A stretch of 64,000 bases of DNA from Lyngbya sp. HA4199-MV5 (GTDB lineage Bacteria; Cyanobacteriota; Cyanobacteriia; Leptolyngbyales; Leptolyngbyaceae), in the NCBI GenBank assembly GCA_019359375.1, contig JAHHHL010000019.1, positions 62,001-126,000 on the forward strand, given 5' to 3'. Position numbers and translations under genes: made by a program. Each line of letters begins with the position of its first letter. Position 1 is the stretch's first letter. This document shows positions 10,719 to 64,000 of the stretch, in pieces. Below the pieces are notes generated by a model. It had not been told where the DNA came from, did no database searches, and was given only the letters and a program-made list of their open reading frames with translations.

Positions 10719-12776
10719 TTATGGCATCCGTTCAGACCGATCGAGGCGTATCATGAGTCGAATGAAGGCGATCGCGGCAGCAGCAGCGGCACCCGCAGGC
10801 AAGAGCGCCCACCAGGCATAGCCTGTTGCTACTAGGATGGTCGCCGACAGGGTAAAGGCACACACCAGCAGCGTGTAGTTTGTCCCCATATTAACGCCAC
10901 TGAGTCGTCGGAGAATGCGATCGGTTTCAATCGATCGCACGCGTACCCGCACATCGCCCCGCTCCAACTTGTCTAGAGTGTCTTCAATGCGGCGAGGTAG
11001 CCCCAATGCGGTACTGCTAACCTGAGCCGCCTGTCGCCCAAACTCGCTCAAAATACTGTTTGCATCGGATGATGGATTGCCGTTCGCCATAATTTGCATT
11101 GCAAAAGGTCTTGCAACCTCCATAAAGTTAAAGTCTGGATCAAGCCCCTTGCCCACACCTTCCAGCGTAGAAAAGGCACGCATCACAAAGGTAAACGTCG
11201 CTGGAAACCGAAACGGTTGTCCGTAAGCAATTTCGTATAAATCGTCGCTGATGGCACTCACCGATTGGTTTTCAAACGGCTTGTCCATGAAGTTATCCAG
11301 CATGAACTGCACCGATCGCCGCACAGGACCCATATCGTCCGCTTCAGCCAGCGCACCCAGTTCCACCAGGGACGCAACCACGCGATCGCCATCCTTCTGC
11401 GCTACCCCAAAGAATACCTCCAGCAGCTTCTCGCGGGTGAGAATTGAGACCTGCCCCATCATGCCAAAATCATAGAAAATGAGCGATCCGTCCGGGTTAA
11501 CCGCAATGTTACCAGGATGGGGATCGGCATGAAAAAAGCCATCGTTCAGCAATTGATGCAAATAAGCTTTTGCGCCCATTTGAGCCAGCGATTTGCGATC
11601 GAGTCCTGCCGCTTCCAGGGCTTCGTAGTGACTAATTTTGATCCCCGGTAGATACTCCAGCGTCAATACGCGAGGCGAGGCATAGCGCCAGTAGACGCGC
11701 GGCACAGAAACCCACTCTTCTTGCCGAAAGTTGCGTCGAAACGTGTCTGCGTTGCGCCCTTCGTTGAGATAATCGACTTCCTCATACAAAATTTTGCAGC
11801 ACTCCTCATAAATGCCCAGCCAGTCGCGCCCCTTGCCCCATTCAGGATGGTTCTGGAAGTAGCGGGTAATGCCTTTGAGGATAGCCAGGTCAATCTTAAA
11901 CAGCTTGAGCAAGCCAGGACGCTGCACCTTTACTACGACTTCTTCACCCGAATGAAGCTGTGCGCGATGCACCTGTCCCAAACTTGCAGCCGCGAGGGGA
12001 ATTGGGTCAAAACTCTGAAAAAGCTGCTGGATAGGCTTTCCCAAATCTTGCTCAATAATGACTTTTGCCTGCTCGTAGCTAAATGCAGGCACTCGGTCTT
12101 GCAGCTTGGATAGCTCTTCGACATATTCTGTGGGGAAGAGGTCGGCACGGGTAGAGAAAAGTTGCCCAACCTTAATAAACGTGGGTCCCAGATCCAGCAG
12201 CGTGTCCCGAATCCAAATCGCCTGTTTACGCCGCCGTTGCGTTTGCTTCTCCTCGGTCATCCCACCAGGATAGCTCCAGGGCTTTTTGTAGAGCCATTGT
12301 GAAAAGAGCAGCAGCCACACAAAAGACTGGATATCGTAGGTCCGACCCAGACGAGAATAATTTTCCCGACTCCATCGGTAGGATTTGTCCCCATAAGCTT
12401 TCGGCTTTGGCTGCCGAGTGCCCCTAACCGATGGGACTTCTACAGGTGCCTGACCATTGCGAACAGCCTGCTCATACTGGTGTGCCACAGCTTCTTCAGC
12501 CGTTACCGTTTTTTTTGGATCGGCTTTAGGGGGAGGAGCCTCTGGCAAGTCCGCAGCAGCCGTATAGTGAAAGGCACCGTTCGGGCTGGATGTGATCGCA
12601 TGATCATCACCTTTAATCGACGCAAACTTGCCATTCGTGCCATCTAAGTGATCAAATGGATACGCTGGCACCCGATGCTTTGTCAAACCATCTACATCCG
12701 TTTGATGCGCGTTGACACCATCAACAGGCTCCGCAGATTGCTGTAAGGGGTCGGAGTCGTGGGAAAAAACAGACAC
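10719..12776 (-). CDS. UbiB/ABC1 (AarF) family atypical kinase-like protein
   Basis: A 685-residue protein. The first 130 residues are polar and low in conserved features. The core shows the family motifs KVGQLFSTRADLFP (KxGQ), the Ala-rich loop PLAAASLGQVHRA, VVVKVQRPG with the binding Lys, FFHADPHPGNIAV and YDFGMMGQ. Two hydrophobic segments close the protein (about residues 640-675). ABC1 proteins are ATPases tied to isoprenoid quinone synthesis or lipid homeostasis; the role of this paralogue is unknown. Its start is 95 bases downstream of the small coiled-coil gene on the same strand. Confidence 0.92.
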   Translation of the reverse strand: MSVFSHDSDPLQQSAEPVDGVNAHQTDVDGLTKHRVPAYPFDHLDGTNGKFASIKGDDHAITSSPNGAFHYTAAADLPEAPPPKADPKKTVTAEEAVAHQYEQAVRNGQAPVEVPSVRGTRQPKPKAYGDKSYRWSRENYSRLGRTYDIQSFVWLLLFSQWLYKKPWSYPGGMTEEKQTQRRRKQAIWIRDTLLDLGPTFIKVGQLFSTRADLFPTEYVEELSKLQDRVPAFSYEQAKVIIEQDLGKPIQQLFQSFDPIPLAAASLGQVHRAQLHSGEEVVVKVQRPGLLKLFKIDLAILKGITRYFQNHPEWGKGRDWLGIYEECCKILYEEVDYLNEGRNADTFRRNFRQEEWVSVPRVYWRYASPRVLTLEYLPGIKISHYEALEAAGLDRKSLAQMGAKAYLHQLLNDGFFHADPHPGNIAVNPDGSLIFYDFGMMGQVSILTREKLLEVFFGVAQKDGDRVVASLVELGALAEADDMGPVRRSVQFMLDNFMDKPFENQSVSAISDDLYEIAYGQPFRFPATFTFVMRAFSTLEGVGKGLDPDFNFMEVARPFAMQIMANGNPSSDANSILSEFGRQAAQVSSTALGLPRRIEDTLDKLERGDVRVRVRSIETDRILRRLSGVNMGTNYTLLVCAFTLSATILVATGYAWWALLPAGAAAAAAIAFIRLMIRLDRSERMP

Positions 12777-18066: not shown

Positions 18067-18597
18067 TGATGGAGTCTTTCCCCCCTTAAAGGTTGGCAAA
18101 GCACGTAGCACGCAATAGAAAAGCTACCGCGACTTCAAAACCGAAGGACACGGCAGCACGTACGTTTGGAGTCCCTGAAACCCGATGCGTGGCAAGCAGG
18201 TTTCAGAGTGCCGCCTTCATGAGGTTTGAAGACGACACTATGCTGGTTCTAACTTGCTCTAAATTAGCCATGCCAGCATTCTGAAGGATCTTTATCGTTT
18301 GATTACGCACTTGCCTGGAGAGGGGAAAGTTTTGATTGCGTTGAGAAGGCAGGAGGCAGGAGGCAGAGGGCAGAAGGCAGAGAGCAGAGGGCAGAAGGCA
18401 AGGCTAAAGGCTAAAAAGTTGACTCCTCGCTCCTCACCCCTCACTCCTCGCCCCTCACTCCTCACCCCTCACTCCCCAACGTTTCAACTCAACTGCACCG
18501 TGTGGGGGCTTGTTAAACACAAGCAGACCGTGTAAAGGTAAGGGCATTGTTGCGATCGCTGCAACGTTGAACCCTCTTTGTCCTTACGAATACGCTG
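18067..18597. other. Spacer with heptamer array between mntH and the mla genes
   Basis: No credible gene. 18345-18415 is AGGCAGGAGGCAGAGGGCAG-type repeat and 18420-18478 is TCCTCACCCCTCACTCCTCG-type repeat, in opposite purine/pyrimidine sense. The bases 18500-18597 should hold the promoter of the downstream ATPase gene; no clear -35/-10 was identified. Confidence 0.6.
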
Positions 18598-23785: not shown

Positions 23786-23921
23786 GGTGCGGGGTGTAGG
23801 GGATAGGCAGTAAATGTGTTTGCAGGAAAGACGATCGCTCTTCTGGTGTGGAGATGTGGCGAGAGCGATCGTCTTCCCGGCAGTTTCTAGCAGTTCAAAC
23901 AAGTTCGCTTAAACAAGCGCC

Positions 23922-27959: not shown

Positions 27960-28140
27960 ATTCAGTTGTTAGTTGTTGGTTGTTAGAGCGGAGAAGGCTT
28001 AAGGCTAAAGGATGAGGGCTAAAAGCTAAAGTCTAAAGGATGATAGCTGACTGCTGATAGCGACTGAACTTAGAACTTTCACTCCTCACTCCTCACTCCT
28101 CACCCCTCACTCCTCACCCCTCACTCCTCACCTCTTACCC
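27960..28140. repeat. Heptamer arrays before the GTPase gene
   Basis: GTTGTTAGTTGTTGGTTGTT, then AAGGCTAAAGGATGAGGGCT, then TCACTCCTCACTCCTCACTC and TCACCCCTCACTCCTCACCC. No gene. Confidence 0.85.
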
Positions 28141-47064: not shown

Positions 47065-47106
47065 CTGTAGGGCGATCGCCAATTATCTTCAGCGATCGCC
47101 CTACAG
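47065..47106. repeat. Hairpin with HIP1-containing arms
   Basis: CTGTAGGGCGATCGC (47065-47079) and its exact reverse complement at 47092-47106, separated by 12 bases. It lies 20 bases after the nucleosidase stop codon. No U-run follows on either strand, so it is not a standard terminator, but the 15-bp stem could stabilise or end transcripts. Confidence 0.8.
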
Positions 47107-59131: not shown

Positions 59132-61282
59132 ATGAAAGAATTTGAGAAGTCGATATCCTTTGATGGTAGGGATATTCGGCTGAAGGTTGGTTTACTCGCC
59201 CCACAGGCAGGAGGAACCGTCCTCATTGAATCGGAAGATACGGCTGTTTTGGTGACTGCAACCCGCGCCGCTGGACGAGAAGGCATTGACTTCCTCCCGC
59301 TGCTAGTTGATTACGAAGAGCGTTTGTACGCAGCCGGACGCATTCCCGGAGGGTTTTTACGCCGCGAAGGTCGCCCGCCCGAACGCGCCACGTTGACGAG
59401 CCGTTTGATCGATCGACCCCTGCGTCCCCTCTTTCCTGGCTGGTTGCGAGATGATATTCAGGTCGTTGCTACCACAATGTCAATGGACGATCGGGTTCCT
59501 CCCGATGTGCTGGCGGTAACGGGTGCGTCGATCGCCGTCTTGCTCGCCAAACTCCCGTTCAACGGACCAATGGCAGCCGTGCGCGTGGGTCTAGTCGGCG
59601 ATGATTTTGTGATTAATCCCACCTTCAGCGAGATTGAAGCGGGCGATCTGGATCTCGTCGTGGCAGGCACTCCCGATGGCGTGATTATGGTCGAAGCGGG
59701 CGCGAACCAGCTACCAGAGCAAGACATCATTGAAGCGATCGACTTTGGCTACGAAGCCGTGCGTGACTTAATTCAGGCACAGTTAGACTTGCTGCAAGAA
59801 TTGGGCATTGAGCAGGTGAAGGAAGCGCCTCCAGAAGTTGATTTGACGCTCGAAAACTTCATCAAAGAGCGTGTCACTCAGCCCGTGAAAGAGGTTCTGG
59901 GACGCTTCGAGAAAGATAAGAACGTGCGTGATGCTGCCCTGGATGAAATTAAAGCCTCAGTGGTAGCTGCGATCGCTGAGCTTTCCGATGAAGATCCCGT
60001 TAAAGTAGCAGCCGCAAAAGCGCCTAAAGCGTTGAGCAACACCTTTAAAGACGTGACCAAAACGCTCATGCGTCGTCAGGTCATTGAAGACAAGATTCGA
60101 GTCGATGGTCGCAAGCTGGATGAAGTGCGTCCGATCTCCTGCCGAGTGGGTGTCTTGCCGCCGCGTGTGCATGGCAGTGGCTTGTTCAATCGAGGGTTGA
60201 CCCAGGTGTTGTCGATCGTCACCCTGGGTACGCCCGGTGATGCGCAGGAAATGGATGACCTCCATCCCGATGAGAAAAAGCGGTACCTGCATCACTACAA
60301 CTTCCCACCCTATTCTGTGGGTGAAACCCGCCCGATGCGATCGCCCGGTCGTCGTGAAGTGGGTCACGGTGCATTGGCAGAACGTGCGCTTGTGCCTGTG
60401 CTACCCAAAAAAGAAGACTTCCCCTACGTGCTGCGGGTCGTCTCCGAAGTGCTATCGTCTAACGGCTCCACCTCGATGGGGTCAGTGTCTGGCTCCACCC
60501 TGGCGCTCATGGATGCAGGCGTGCCCATTACCAAACCTGTGAGCGGTGCGGCGATGGGTCTGATCAAGGAAGGCGACGAAATTCGCATTCTGACGGATAT
60601 CCAGGGGATCGAAGATTTCCTTGGCGACATGGACTTCAAAGTAGCGGGGACGGATACGGGCATTACCGCGCTTCAGTTGGATATGAAGCTCAACGGTCTG
60701 CCGCTGGCGGTCATCGCGCAGGCAATCAACGAGGCAAAGCCCGCCCGACTGCACATCCTGTCGAAAATGCTGGAGGCAATTAACCAACCCCGCAGCGACA
60801 TGTCACCCTTTGCCCCACGCCTGCTGACCATTAAGATCGACCCCGACATGATCGGGATGATCATTGGTCCTGGCGGTAAAACCATCAAGGGCATTACCGA
60901 AGAAACCGGAGCCAAAATCGACATCGAAGACACAGGCATTGTCACGATTTCATCAGTGGATGGTGAAGCCGCGAAAAAAGCACGCGGCATCATTCAAGGC
61001 ATGACGCGCAAGCTCAACCAGGGCGATGTGTATGTCGGCAAGGTGACACGGGTGATTCCGATCGGTGCCTTCGTCGAATTCCTTCCTGGCAAAGAAGGCA
61101 TGATTCACATCTCGCAACTGGCAGACTACCGCGTGGGCAAAGTGGAAGATGAAGTGAACCTCGGCGATGAAGTGATCGTCAAAGTGCGCGAAATCGATAA
61201 CCGGGGACGTGTGAACCTCACTCGTCTAGGCATCCACCCCGATGAAGCAGCAGCAGCCCGTGAAGCAGCGACTGTAGTTTAA
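59132..61282 (+). CDS. pnp: Polyribonucleotide nucleotidyltransferase
   Basis: 3'-5' phosphorolytic exoribonuclease, also responsible for RNA tails in cyanobacteria. The 716-residue protein has two RNase PH domains (about 1-230 with [20 protein letters not shown], and about 310-550 with [20 protein letters not shown]), a KH domain near 575 ([20 protein letters not shown]) and an S1 domain near 630-700 ([20 protein letters not shown]). ATG 59132 is preferred because [20 protein letters not shown] is the conserved N-terminus; a frame starting at 59024 is unconserved. Followed by a strong terminator. Confidence 0.96.
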
Positions 61283-61322
61283 GACGCAGTTGGTAGGAAA
61301 AGTAAAGGTTTATAAACCTGCT

Positions 61323-61356
61323 GTAAAGACGTTCCAATGGAGCGTCTTTACTTTTT
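61323..61356 (+). terminator. Terminator of pnp
   Basis: GTAAAGACG (61323-61331) and CGTCTTTAC (61343-61351) form a 9-bp stem; the loop TTCCAATGGAG can pair further through TCC/GGA. Five T follow at 61352-61356. The stem is similar in type to hairpin repeats dispersed in cyanobacteria, so it may be a repeat used as terminator. Confidence 0.85.
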
Positions 61357-61500
61357 GGTATTTGTATAATTTTAGAAATGTGGGTGCAAAGTAAGTATTG
61401 GGCATTCTGAAGGCGTGTACTGCTTCCTCGAATCGAGAAAACAAGCATCGCTCAAGATGAAGTACGTATCCTTACAGTTTTAATTAACTAGGAGAAAACA

Positions 61501-62880
61501 ATGTTTGCACTTGCAGGGCTTGCTTTGCCCGCCGTCACAAGCCTTTTCGCTGCTGTAATTCCAATCCTTTTTGCTTCGCTTGGAAGTCTGTTAGGTTTCG
61601 CATTACCACGAGCAGCCCAACTACCCCGCTACATCAAAGTGCTAACTGTTTTGTATCAAGACGCTTCAGTTGAATCACAGACTCGTAAATACCTGACAGG
61701 CGCTTTATTGATTCTGGGTAGCATCCTAACTTTCCTGGCACATTCTTTCATTCCCTTTACAGGTGTTCCTATTCTTGGTGCTGTCACAACACCGATCGCT
61801 TTATTGATTGCGTTAGTCGTTATTTTGGCGACTCTAGATTTGGTTACACAACTGAATGAACCTTATCTTGCTAATCTGAAATATGTTTACGAGGATGACT
61901 TGCAAAGTATGCAGGATGATCTGCTCACGCTGAAAGTTGAGCTAGGTTCAAAGTGGGTTGAATTAACTCAGAAAACTCAAACGATTTTTAATGATCTAGC
62001 GCCTAAGCTGGCTGAAGCAGGAAGAGATTTGTCTGAAGAAATCAACAAATACTTCAGTCAACAACTGAACGAGCTGATTGTCTATTTTGATGGTGAAAAT
62101 GCCGCTAAAATCACGCTTAATGAAGCGGAAATTAAGGCAATCACCGAAAGCCTTGAACCCTGGAAAAAAGTCGGCGGCTCCTTCATACTGGGTGCTGGTG
62201 CTGGTGCTGGAACGGGCATGATTGCATCGACAGTCGCAGCGGCTAATTTAGCCCCAGCAGTTTGGTGGACTCCTTTTGTGCCAGGTGCAGTGCAAGCTGC
62301 TTTCTTTGGCGGAAGAACTGTTGTAAGTGCTGCAACGTTCAGTATGTGTACAGTAGCTGCTCCGATCGCTTTAGGTTTAACAATCGGCACAGGCGTTTTT
62401 AGTGCAACTATGTTTGCACTTGGCAAAATAGAAGAACATAAGTTAAGCCAGTTTCTTACTGATGTCATTATCGCTTCGCTACCAATGCTGAGAGCAGATG
62501 GTCAATTGGCTGATGCAGAGAAACAAGCTGTCTTACAACTTCTAAATAATCCCAAAATTAATCAGCAAGACCAACTAAAAGTCAAAACTGCGATGGATGC
62601 TGATGATAGCTTTGATGACATTATCACAAAAAATTTGCTACATGAATCAAAGCAGGAAAAGGTTGAAATCAAGCGTAGGTTACTTCTAGCGATTACCTGG
62701 GAAATTGCTAAGGCTGATGGCAGAATTGATGAGAAGGAAACAGCACTACACGATCGCATGGCAAAGATTCTTCAAGTGCCCCAAGCAACTGTAAGTGAAA
62801 TCCGACGCTTAATTACGCCTATCGCTGTGACGAAGCCCCCAAGCCAACCCGTTCCTGTACAAGTTGGAGTATCTCTGTAA
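61501..62880 (+). CDS. Membrane protein with C-terminal TerB-like domain
   Basis: A 459-residue protein I cannot assign to a named family. Residues 1-35 and about 65-120 are hydrophobic (LPAVTSLFAAVIPILFASLG, VTTPIALLIALVVILATLDL), residues 125-190 are amphipathic helices, about 215-305 a Gly/Ala-rich hydrophobic region (ILGAGAGAGTGMIASTVAAA) and 310-440 a helical domain with two acidic units MLRADGQLADAEKQAV and IAKADGRIDEKETALH, the pattern of TerB-like metal-binding domains. AGGAG lies well placed before the ATG. Codon choice looks more AT-rich than in the neighbours, which may point to transfer. Confidence 0.72.
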   Translation: MFALAGLALPAVTSLFAAVIPILFASLGSLLGFALPRAAQLPRYIKVLTVLYQDASVESQTRKYLTGALLILGSILTFLAHSFIPFTGVPILGAVTTPIALLIALVVILATLDLVTQLNEPYLANLKYVYEDDLQSMQDDLLTLKVELGSKWVELTQKTQTIFNDLAPKLAEAGRDLSEEINKYFSQQLNELIVYFDGENAAKITLNEAEIKAITESLEPWKKVGGSFILGAGAGAGTGMIASTVAAANLAPAVWWTPFVPGAVQAAFFGGRTVVSAATFSMCTVAAPIALGLTIGTGVFSATMFALGKIEEHKLSQFLTDVIIASLPMLRADGQLADAEKQAVLQLLNNPKINQQDQLKVKTAMDADDSFDDIITKNLLHESKQEKVEIKRRLLLAITWEIAKADGRIDEKETALHDRMAKILQVPQATVSEIRRLITPIAVTKPPSQPVPVQVGVSL

Positions 62881-62949
62881 GAACTCATTTGCTAGTTTGG
62901 GAATGGACGGTCTCTTGCCTTCTGGTTTTTGATCGTCCTACTCACTTCA

Positions 62950-63132
62950 ATGCCCACTGATACAGGTCAAATCGATCCCAATGAGCAAAACGAAGCTTCT
63001 AACCAAGAGTTGATCATCAGCATTCAAGCGAGTGAGCGTTTGATACTCACGCAAACCTTGGAGATTTTAACGCCCCTTCTCTCACCAGCGCGATCGCCCC
63101 TGCATGGCTGGCTCAAGGGCGATCGCTGTTAA
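62950..63132 (+). CDS. Possible 60-residue protein ending in a repeat
   Basis: A short frame, MPTDTGQIDPNEQNEASNQE, then LIISIQASERLILTQTLEIL. The last 20 residues are encoded by the 54-base repeat at 63073-63126, and the stop overlaps the end of the Uma2 gene on the other strand. It may be the N-terminal remnant of a longer gene cut by the repeat, or chance. No clear ribosome binding site. Confidence 0.3.
   Translation: MPTDTGQIDPNEQNEASNQELIISIQASERLILTQTLEILTPLLSPARSPLHGWLKGDRC
63073..63126. repeat. 54-base direct repeat with HIP1 hairpin, copy 1
   Basis: Starts CCCCTTCTCTCACCAGC and ends with the arms GCGATCGCCC (63090-63099) and GGGCGATCGC (63117-63126). Copy 2 at 63757-63810 matches at 48 of 54 positions by eye; five of six differences are in the loop. 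Confidence 0.85.
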
Positions 63133-63707
63133 AGCCCTCGTCGAAAAGCTCTAATAGCCTCTCCAGCATCCGTTTCAGCCATCAAGATACAACGTTGCAA
63201 TAAATCGAGGTCAAGGTCATTGAGTCCGGGTAGCTGGCTGCGATCGATTGGCTCATAAATGCCATTTTGGAGATGGTAGAGCTTTAGCACTCCGTCTTCC
63301 CAAAACCAAACTTCAGGCACACCTAGAGCTTTGTAACGCTCAAGCTTACTGATGCCACCGCTTGTGAAAACAACCTCGATCGCTAAATCTGGAATTGTCT
63401 TGACGCTCTCGATGCAGTAAGACTCATCTGCTTGGGCAGAGACCACCCCTTCTTTTTCTTGGGTCATTGACCCTGTCGGCTGAAAGAAGATTCCCTTTTC
63501 GGTCAGGAAGGTGGTTACTAAGTAGCCAATGAGTCGCGAGAAAATTTCGTGTTCACGTCCCGGCATAAGAATCTCGATCGTCTGGTCATAATAAAACAAC
63601 CGCACACCACGAGAGTCATCAAAGCCCTTTTGAATCAGCTTAAACTGTTCCCAGGTGCCATGATGGACGATGCGTTGATCGGTTGCTCTATCAAGTAGTG
63701 AGGGCAT
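63129..63707 (-). CDS. Uma2 family protein (DUF820), second copy
   Basis: A 192-residue Uma2/PD-(D/E)XK-like protein, different from the one at 15787. MPSLLDRATDQRIVHHGTWE is followed by QTIEILMPGREHEIFSRLIG, PDLAIEVVFTSGGISKLERY and GVPEVWFWEDGVLKLYHL, the standard core (an acidic P-D-(x)n-E-V pattern). Start at 63707 has AGAGG eight bases upstream; a GTG at 63716 adds three residues. The gene is bracketed by two 54-base direct repeats, the left one beginning two bases after the stop codon. Confidence 0.88.
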   Translation of the reverse strand: MPSLLDRATDQRIVHHGTWEQFKLIQKGFDDSRGVRLFYYDQTIEILMPGREHEIFSRLIGYLVTTFLTEKGIFFQPTGSMTQEKEGVVSAQADESYCIESVKTIPDLAIEVVFTSGGISKLERYKALGVPEVWFWEDGVLKLYHLQNGIYEPIDRSQLPGLNDLDLDLLQRCILMAETDAGEAIRAFRRGL

Positions 63708-63756
63708 TGCATTCACCTCTGCCTATCCTGTCTGCATTGTGGCATATTGCTGATCA

Positions 63757-63810
63757 CCCCTTCTCTCACTAGCGCGATCGCCCCTGCATGATTGGTTGGA
63801 GGGCGATCGC
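63757..63810. repeat. 54-base direct repeat with HIP1 hairpin, copy 2
   Basis: CCCCTTCTCTCACTAGC followed by GCGATCGCCC (63774-63783) and GGGCGATCGC (63801-63810). It lies 50 bases upstream of the Uma2 start codon and thus in its promoter region. Confidence 0.85.
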
Positions 63811-63953
63811 ATAACTCCAACATCAAGAGCTTGGACTGGTGGTGCCGAAAGCGAGGCAGTTTAATGCTCTTCTAGAATTTTCCTGGGAATGCTTTCGCGC
63901 TCAACTACTGCTGGCACAGATTTACAATAGAAGGATCAACTCATTCTTTCTCT

Positions 63954-64000
63954 ATGCCCGCCAAAGATCTCTATCACGACACAGTTAAAACTGCCCTGGT
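63954..64000 (+). CDS. xisH: XisH family protein, first codons only
   Basis: The 15 complete codons before the right edge read MPAKDLYHDTVKTAL, which is the highly conserved start of XisH (M.AKD.YHD.VK.AL). XisH and XisI were found as factors controlling excision of the fdxN element in heterocystous cyanobacteria; homologues are spread as small paired genes in many cyanobacteria and xisI should follow outside the window. The gene is cut by the edge. AAGGA lies about 16 bases upstream of the ATG. Confidence 0.8.
   Translation, partial: MPAKDLYHDTVKTAL

Follow-up and report, generated by a model that had tools for sequence, protein, structure and literature searches.

The known means by which bacteria stockpile and reshuffle single-gene cassettes is the integron, and defence islands containing Uma2, XisHI and type II toxin-antitoxin (TA) modules also exist. 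The locus described here has the gene content of such islands, the difference being that nearly every module boundary carries the same repeat. It is also like a chromosomal integron or a CALIN in that its hairpin sites share one orientation, each with one small module, in that it is TA-rich with contents that differ between relatives at one locus, and in that no integrase is seen at the array; it differs in that the site is based on HIP1 (GCGATCGC) and is devoid of attC ends, while the modules here carry their upstream regions with them and can face either way. Cyanobacterial integrons have been described (in the portions of PMC8618304 and PMC2426708 cited here), and the same portion of PMC8618304 describes TA-rich cassettes as common in chromosomal integrons and off-target insertion as one proposed origin of CALINs. 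HIP1 is linked to site-specific recombination and excision in the portion of PMC4390886 cited here, which also describes SDR5, a small cyanobacterial repeat that inserts within HIP1, and PMC4390886 states that there is no evidence tying HIP1 to homologous recombination. The likeness to HIP1 and the SDRs is that the arms of the present repeat are HIP1, whereas here three HIP1 octamers flank two conserved loops in a fixed order, in few copies and around TA modules. Like REPIN and REP sequences with their RAYTs, the present repeats are small extragenic hairpins that are sometimes in tandem, but they are low in copy number and in direct rather than inverted order, and no RAYT was recognised nearby by eye. 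No description of such arrays was found in the literature searched, namely titles and the starts of abstracts, with few subscription papers.

The window, the whole 64,000-nt stretch that was analysed, is C1:62001-126000 of its genome (G000; 6.9 Mb in 95 contigs). Close to its end are two direct repeats, R1 (63073-63126) and R2 (63757-63810), of 54 nt each and identical at 48 of 54 positions (89%); five of the six differences fall in the loop and one in the left part. Each forms a hairpin with perfect 10-nt arms (GCGATCGCCC/GGGCGATCGC) and a 17-nt loop (63090-63126 and 63774-63810), and the four strands folded were more stable than shuffled sequences (z -2.35 to -4.05). A sequence-only reading of the window had described two copies of equal length, perfect-arm hairpins with the differences mainly in the loop, a Uma2-type gene with one repeat just behind its stop and the other about 50 nt upstream of its start, and xisH adjoining this unit. 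All of this is borne out by direct comparison and by the domain assignments below, the distances being 2 nt from the stop and 40 nt from a GTG start, or 49 nt from an inner ATG. A third copy, R3, is absent from that reading; it follows the xisI ORF at a distance of 41 nt and is 735 nt beyond the end of the window. The order is therefore R1, Uma2 (minus strand), R2, xisH-xisI (plus strand), R3, with all three repeats in one orientation, and over 60 nt R1 and R3 are respectively 85% and 90% identical to R2. The features are as follows.

62950-63069, plus strand: gene remnant of 40 codons ending at R1; the beginning of the remnant is similar to a 584-aa ORF that lies downstream of pnp in G001
63068-63089, plus strand: 5' box of R1 (repeat profile positions 1-22)
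63090-63126, plus strand: core hairpin of R1, its arms being HIP1; the Uma2 stop codon is 2 nt away, and the core at L078:10255-10291 is a homologue
63129-63716, minus strand: Uma2-1 gene (Uma2 family, PF05685), with a GTG start or an inner ATG at 63707
63752-63773, plus strand: 5' box of R2 on the Uma2 start side (alignment and repeat profile)
63774-63810, plus strand: core hairpin of R2 on the xisH start side (alignment and folding)
63954-64000, plus strand: start of xisH (PF08814); xisI (PF08869) and then R3 follow beyond the window end
about C1:126735-126794, same orientation as R1 and R2: third repeat, R3 (blastn and alignment)

Uma2-1 scores 40.9 bits against PF05685, above the Pfam gathering score of 27, and matches the PADLOC candidate defence family PDC-S17, while XisH and XisI reach 187.2 and 120.6 bits against PF08814 and PF08869 (cut-offs 25). 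A gene before R1 was apparently truncated by the edge of the array, as suggested by the short match between the remnant and the G001 ORF (52% over 27 aa, E 4.8e-7 against one 14.5-kb locus); the remnant had no match in five other pnp loci. A TerB-domain protein (window 61501-62880) also adjoins the array. Its homologue was found in only one other among seven genus genomes (39%), and it was dropped as a locus anchor for that reason.

The window contains three 54-nt direct matches with at least 48 identities (best per offset), the other two being joins of CT-rich tracts, and the second copy is recovered by blastn at E 1.6e-13 in the whole genome. HIP1 octamers number 59 in the window, one per 1085 nt, and five pairs of them are no more than 45 nt apart, two of these being the R1 and R2 hairpins; HIP1 alone is insufficient to account for the repeat pair because the loops are also common to both copies. 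Blastn and profile searches of the genome returned no further full-length copy besides R1-R3, and weaker or partial pieces at C1:6743-6779 and C55:271716-271762. A known RNA family was rejected as the identity of the repeat, 60000-64000 giving no match to Rfam at E 1 or below, and so was a consensus intrinsic terminator, none being found in 62800-64000.

The full repeat is about 60 nt long and is built as HIP1, a box loop (CCCCTTCTCTTCACAAG), HIP1, a core loop (CCCTGCATGATTGGCTCAAG) and HIP1. Searching 194 related genomes with a 62-nt query gave matches in 39 at E <=0.01, with the strong matches in the genus and family, in a sample of one genome per species made up mostly of drafts. A repeat model trained on 26 copies, many of them from the array loci themselves, matched 27 of 42 family genomes at E <=0.001 under stricter filters that lose weak matches. 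RNAalifold placed two pairs on these 26 copies, neither of them compensatory, so that the model amounts to a sequence profile. Strong copies were found only in the cyanobacterial family to which the genome belongs; outside it, the kept 3-kb loci from the 62-nt query all scored below 18 bits. A degenerate exact pattern searched in one genome per species across 84,980 species, a set that perhaps does not include the present genome, recovered eight stretches, in Leptolyngbya sp. ES-bin-22, Stenomitos frigidus ULC18, Stenomitos rutilans, Tildeniella nuda and Phormidesmis priestleyi ULC007. Viral contigs gave no exact-pattern match, and plasmids gave only similarity to Uma2-type genes, for a G002 array and for window 63060-64000. 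Copy number is low, no genome having more than 11 profile matches at E 0.001, and the 45 matches of at least 32 bits are confined to 12 of the 42 family genomes, 35 of them within 2 kb of another by hand count. The high-copy extragenic dispersal of REPIN and REP sequences is thus not seen, since the strong copies are few and mostly clustered.

Arrays in relatives are bounded in the same way. Counting copies of at least 15 bits, G002 has seven over 3.2 kb (L070), G005 seven (L072) and G001 seven at L071 with one remote, and there are fewer in G023, G009, G025, G006 and G000. Within each array locus the repeats share one orientation, the one exception being a 13.1-bit match in L085. When intervals under 2 kb between consecutive repeats of at least 13 bits were counted by hand, with representatives scanned against Pfam, 23 of the 24 that bear genes held one Uma2, XisHI or TA-type module, with DUF2442 taken to be TA-type; the unclassified interval is L078:9265-9567. 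In all, the repeats bound at least ten kinds of TA and defence modules. Pfam scans of 31 proteins besides the TerB neighbour, the remaining module members being assigned by DNA or protein similarity, gave names including PhdYeFM, PIN, DUF2281, AF2212-like, DUF2442, ParE, ParD, BrnT, CopG, HicB, PemK, HepT, nucleotidyltransferase, Peptidase_C14 and TIR; the PhdYeFM, HicB and DUF2283 matches fall below the Pfam cut-offs, and four of the 31 had no Pfam match. Some modules are decayed: the PhdPIN module of G002 lacks the part containing most of the PIN gene, and a G025 xisH has an internal TGA. Caspase-type genes adjoin repeats at L070:12822, L075:5778, L078:6838 and L083:7506 (only the L070 gene was Pfam-scanned); these four loci belong to three other genomes and the G002 pair. 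The names pnp, bioB, serS, rnhA, xthA, FHA, clpB and YidD are used here as putative assignments.

The same modules are found between repeats in new company. The window Uma2 recurs at an unrelated Tildeniella locus, L078, with 84.6% DNA identity over a block (L037:5090-5751) that starts exactly where the R1 core does and ends immediately before R2. The window xisHI recurs in Phormidesmis priestleyi, which belongs to another genus, over 966 columns at 81.6% identity; on the window side this block starts inside the R2 box and stops 20 nt short of R3, on the P. priestleyi side it runs from repeat to repeat, and it includes about 140 nt of non-coding DNA between the core and xisH. There, xisHI has a caspase gene on one side and xthA on the other. 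Across 12 tabulated loci, ten modules recur, each in two or three loci, and 33 distinct neighbour pairs were counted among 34, only AF2212-PIN2281 recurring; the table leaves out single-repeat loci (e.g. L074, L075, L077, L079-L082 and L087-L097), and its gene labels and the repeat ends, like those of the half-repeat tests and the motif re-check, were set by hand. The arrays therefore have a trait of integrons, in that one module can occupy several arrays, its neighbours differing between them. The earlier suggestion of a Uma2 cassette with its own flanking repeats holds up, and extends beyond Uma2, in so far as Uma2 and xisHI do recur between repeats elsewhere, and the other repeat-bounded Uma2 genes for which it called were found in the L078 copy; a Uma2-specific cassette is rejected because the repeats are not Uma2's own and bound many other modules.

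The ends of the recurring blocks often coincide with repeats. Both ends are within 9 nt of repeats for PhdPIN (L072/L076) and PemK (L072/L085), while one or both ends lie 20-71 nt away for Uma2-2 (L070/L071), HicAB (L072/L073) and BrnTA (L072/L078, L072/L085 and L078/L085), and there are further misses where one locus is without the repeat; the ends off repeats reach 71 nt for BrnTA, 78 for HicAB, 50 for Uma2-2 and 334 for one end of AF2212 in L071. Of 100 ends of 25 homology blocks, 48 are within 30 nt of a repeat, against a random mean of 9.6 and maximum of 22 in 2000 placements, in a test that kept the 25 of 41 blocks having an end within 600 nt of a repeat, that includes several blocks comparing one module, and whose null ignores the tendency of moved-gene homology to end near gene ends anyway. 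Because of this selection and these limits of the null, we give more weight to the change of neighbours and to the presence of cores and non-coding DNA within the blocks.

Presence and absence of a whole array at one site is seen in two genomes of the same genus. In G025 a 3.4-kb stretch containing DUF and caspase genes, a repeat, XisHI and a second repeat separates an FHA-type gene from xthA, while in G009 about 31 nt lie between the same two genes, with flanks that are 79% and 86% identical. The G025 insertion extends 48 nt past the outer repeat, and no target duplication was seen. Two other anchors were tried and abandoned. At the bioB-side locus, two of six genomes have arrays of different content, three have none in 20 kb and one contig is too short; the upstream side is not conserved and there is no clean empty site. 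pnp is conserved in all seven genus genomes, the other six being without an array there, and the genes downstream of it differ except for one common to G001 and G005 (68%), the G005 contig ending soon after. The check proposed in the sequence-only reading, a search for an empty site with one repeat copy, consequently yielded no clean case at the window's locus among the six relatives.

Cores without a box, boxes without a core and gene-less tandem repeats all occur, and at the edge of L078 the Uma2 module opens with a core placed directly against other DNA. A lone core hairpin (L077:10456-10496, G001:C39) lies behind an rnhA-like ORF with no module adjoining, and may mark either where a cassette was lost or where a core simply inserted. 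Cores do not clearly follow their own gene (identity 0.754 vs 0.739, p 0.24). Boxes appeared to do so (0.759 vs 0.665, p 0.002), the crossed controls of this test giving p 0.90 and 0.67, but some of the sequences compared as boxes were ordinary flanks, and once these were removed the values became 0.769 vs 0.732 (p 0.078). Box co-variation was accordingly given up as proof of the junction, leaving the block ends and the half-sites to suggest that modules may be joined between box and core.

We lean, with some hesitation, towards reading the repeat-bounded modules as an integron-like array of cassettes that have a composite HIP1 site and are reshuffled through recombination at their repeats. 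Each module would be a cassette consisting of a core hairpin, one or more genes, their upstream region and a 5' box, and head-to-tail joining of such cassettes would rebuild a full repeat at each junction. Recombination at the repeats, which would then be recombination sites, could lead to cassettes being gained, lost and reordered, the candidate agents being homologous recombination, a HIP1-linked activity or a dedicated recombinase. A second role for the repeat, as a putative terminator hairpin after stop codons, is plausible. This reading is supported by the clustering of the repeats, the single module per interval, the shuffled neighbours, the module homology that extends to repeats in new company, the occupied and empty site and the bioB-side arrays of unlike content, and also by the half-repeats, the gene-less tandem repeats and the gene remnant abutting R1. 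If it is true, a second site that is unrelated to integrons delimits TA and defence modules in a genome that also has a true integron, and cassette arrays can arise by another route than integrons. The arrays would then offer a natural context for testing the suspected link of HIP1 to recombination. They also list candidate defence modules.

The cassette reading is weakened by modules that have no repeat. Orthologues of Uma2 without such a repeat within 1.5 kb on either side are present in G005 (84%), G018 (83%) and G010 (78%), and XisH without it in the loci examined is present in G004 (74%) and G034 (68%). A strict tie between Uma2 and the repeat, as the first description of the locus implied, fails in part, since relatives carrying Uma2 without the repeat were the case named as refuting it and three were found. 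Next to the G005 Uma2, a diverged HIP1-armed hairpin with a different loop stands where the core would be. The homology of the repeat-free Uma2 copies stops at almost the same points as that of the repeat-bounded ones. With all these cases, the repeat is dispensable for the existence or movement of these Uma2 and XisHI genes. At serS in the present genome (L098:9660-10980, G000:C55) a second Uma2 is joined to a shortened hicA with no repeat, and at serS in a relative (L073, G006:C18) HicAB has a repeat on either side. The block ends off repeats, the insignificant co-variation of gene and repeat halves, the G025 insertion ending 48 nt off, the lone core at the rnhA-like ORF, the serS join without a repeat and the failure to recognise a recombinase by eye in the array loci weaken the cassette reading in the same sense.

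The main rival, which we consider a real if somewhat doubtful possibility, is that the repeats are passive hairpins of the REP or SDR kind: a HIP1-armed repeat would insert beside genes and accumulate in hypervariable TA islands as a bystander, the modules moving by other means and the repeat perhaps acting as a terminator or insulator. The lone cores by housekeeping-type genes, the repeat-free modules of relatives and the repeat halves that do not clearly follow their own genes are all consistent with this, as is the insertion of SDR5 within HIP1 known from cyanobacteria (in the cited portion of PMC4390886). The HIP1 stem of the core is kept, with 89.8% of cells pairing (covariation 0.126 vs 0.108 in shuffles, 21 of 500 shuffles being as high), and in the array loci the core is often near a stop codon. 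Cores are also slightly more alike within a genome than between genomes (0.817 vs 0.787, p 0.002). Against passive insertion are the low copy number and clustering, the single orientation per array with its one weak exception, and the finding that one module can have a box at one end and a core at the other in separate loci, for xisHI even across genera.

A variant in which capture is independent of integrons, circular TA or defence cassettes being cut and joined between box and core by a putative cyanobacterial recombinase, appears unlikely. Were it true, HIP1 would gain a function in site-specific recombination in these genomes.

We regard as very improbable a single-strand element mobilised in trans, in which the box and core hairpins would be the left and right ends for a Y1 transposase of the IS200/IS605 or RAYT type. 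Two different hairpins, one at each module end, would fit such an element, for which REPINs and RAYTs provide a precedent that includes Nostoc (in the cited portion of PMC3116915). No Y1 transposase was recognised by eye in the array loci, however, no target motif was identified, and the GTAG and CGTC tags carried by known REP superfamilies (in the cited portion of PMC3733652) are not in the repeat consensus.

The genome does contain a true integron integrase, on contig C8 (TIGR02249, 475.6 bits against a cut-off of 265), as do 28 of 41 family genomes at scores over this cut-off. At the integron locus (L111, G000:C8:50001-70000) the integrase occupies 11761-12699, and a 76-nt repeat, which from its AAC...GTT form is probably attC, is present in six copies between 1346 and 11461. 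This resident repeat is unrelated to the array repeat, and attC was rejected as the identity of the latter. In ten stretches of integrase loci the array-repeat profile scored no higher than 11.4 bits, and ends of the form RYYYAAC with GTTRRRY were found in none of 37 array repeats of at least 25 bits and loose AAC/GTT ends in one of 37, the strict motif being coarse in that it also misses the resident 76-nt repeat. No integrase was found beside the arrays, those over the cut-off being on other contigs in the draft genomes G000, G001, G002, G005 and G025, where a distant link is conceivable, and the drafts G006 and G009 have repeats and no integrase over the cut-off. On the basis of the unrelated repeat, the missing attC ends and G006 and G009, we can conclude that the present arrays are not the array of the resident IntI/attC integron. 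Least credible of all, then, is an off-target CALIN in which the resident IntI would recombine array repeats as degenerate attC sites, for although integrases are widespread in the family, TA-rich integron cassettes common and an off-target origin of CALINs proposed (in the cited portion of PMC8618304), the unrelated resident repeat, the low profile scores, the missing attC ends and G006 and G009 stand against it.

Elsewhere in the window, CT-rich intergenic tracts of the CTCCTCACCCCTCA type are repeated at 18344-18480 and 28076-28140, and two more hairpins with HIP1-containing arms and unrelated loops are present at 23828-23875 and 47069-47102.
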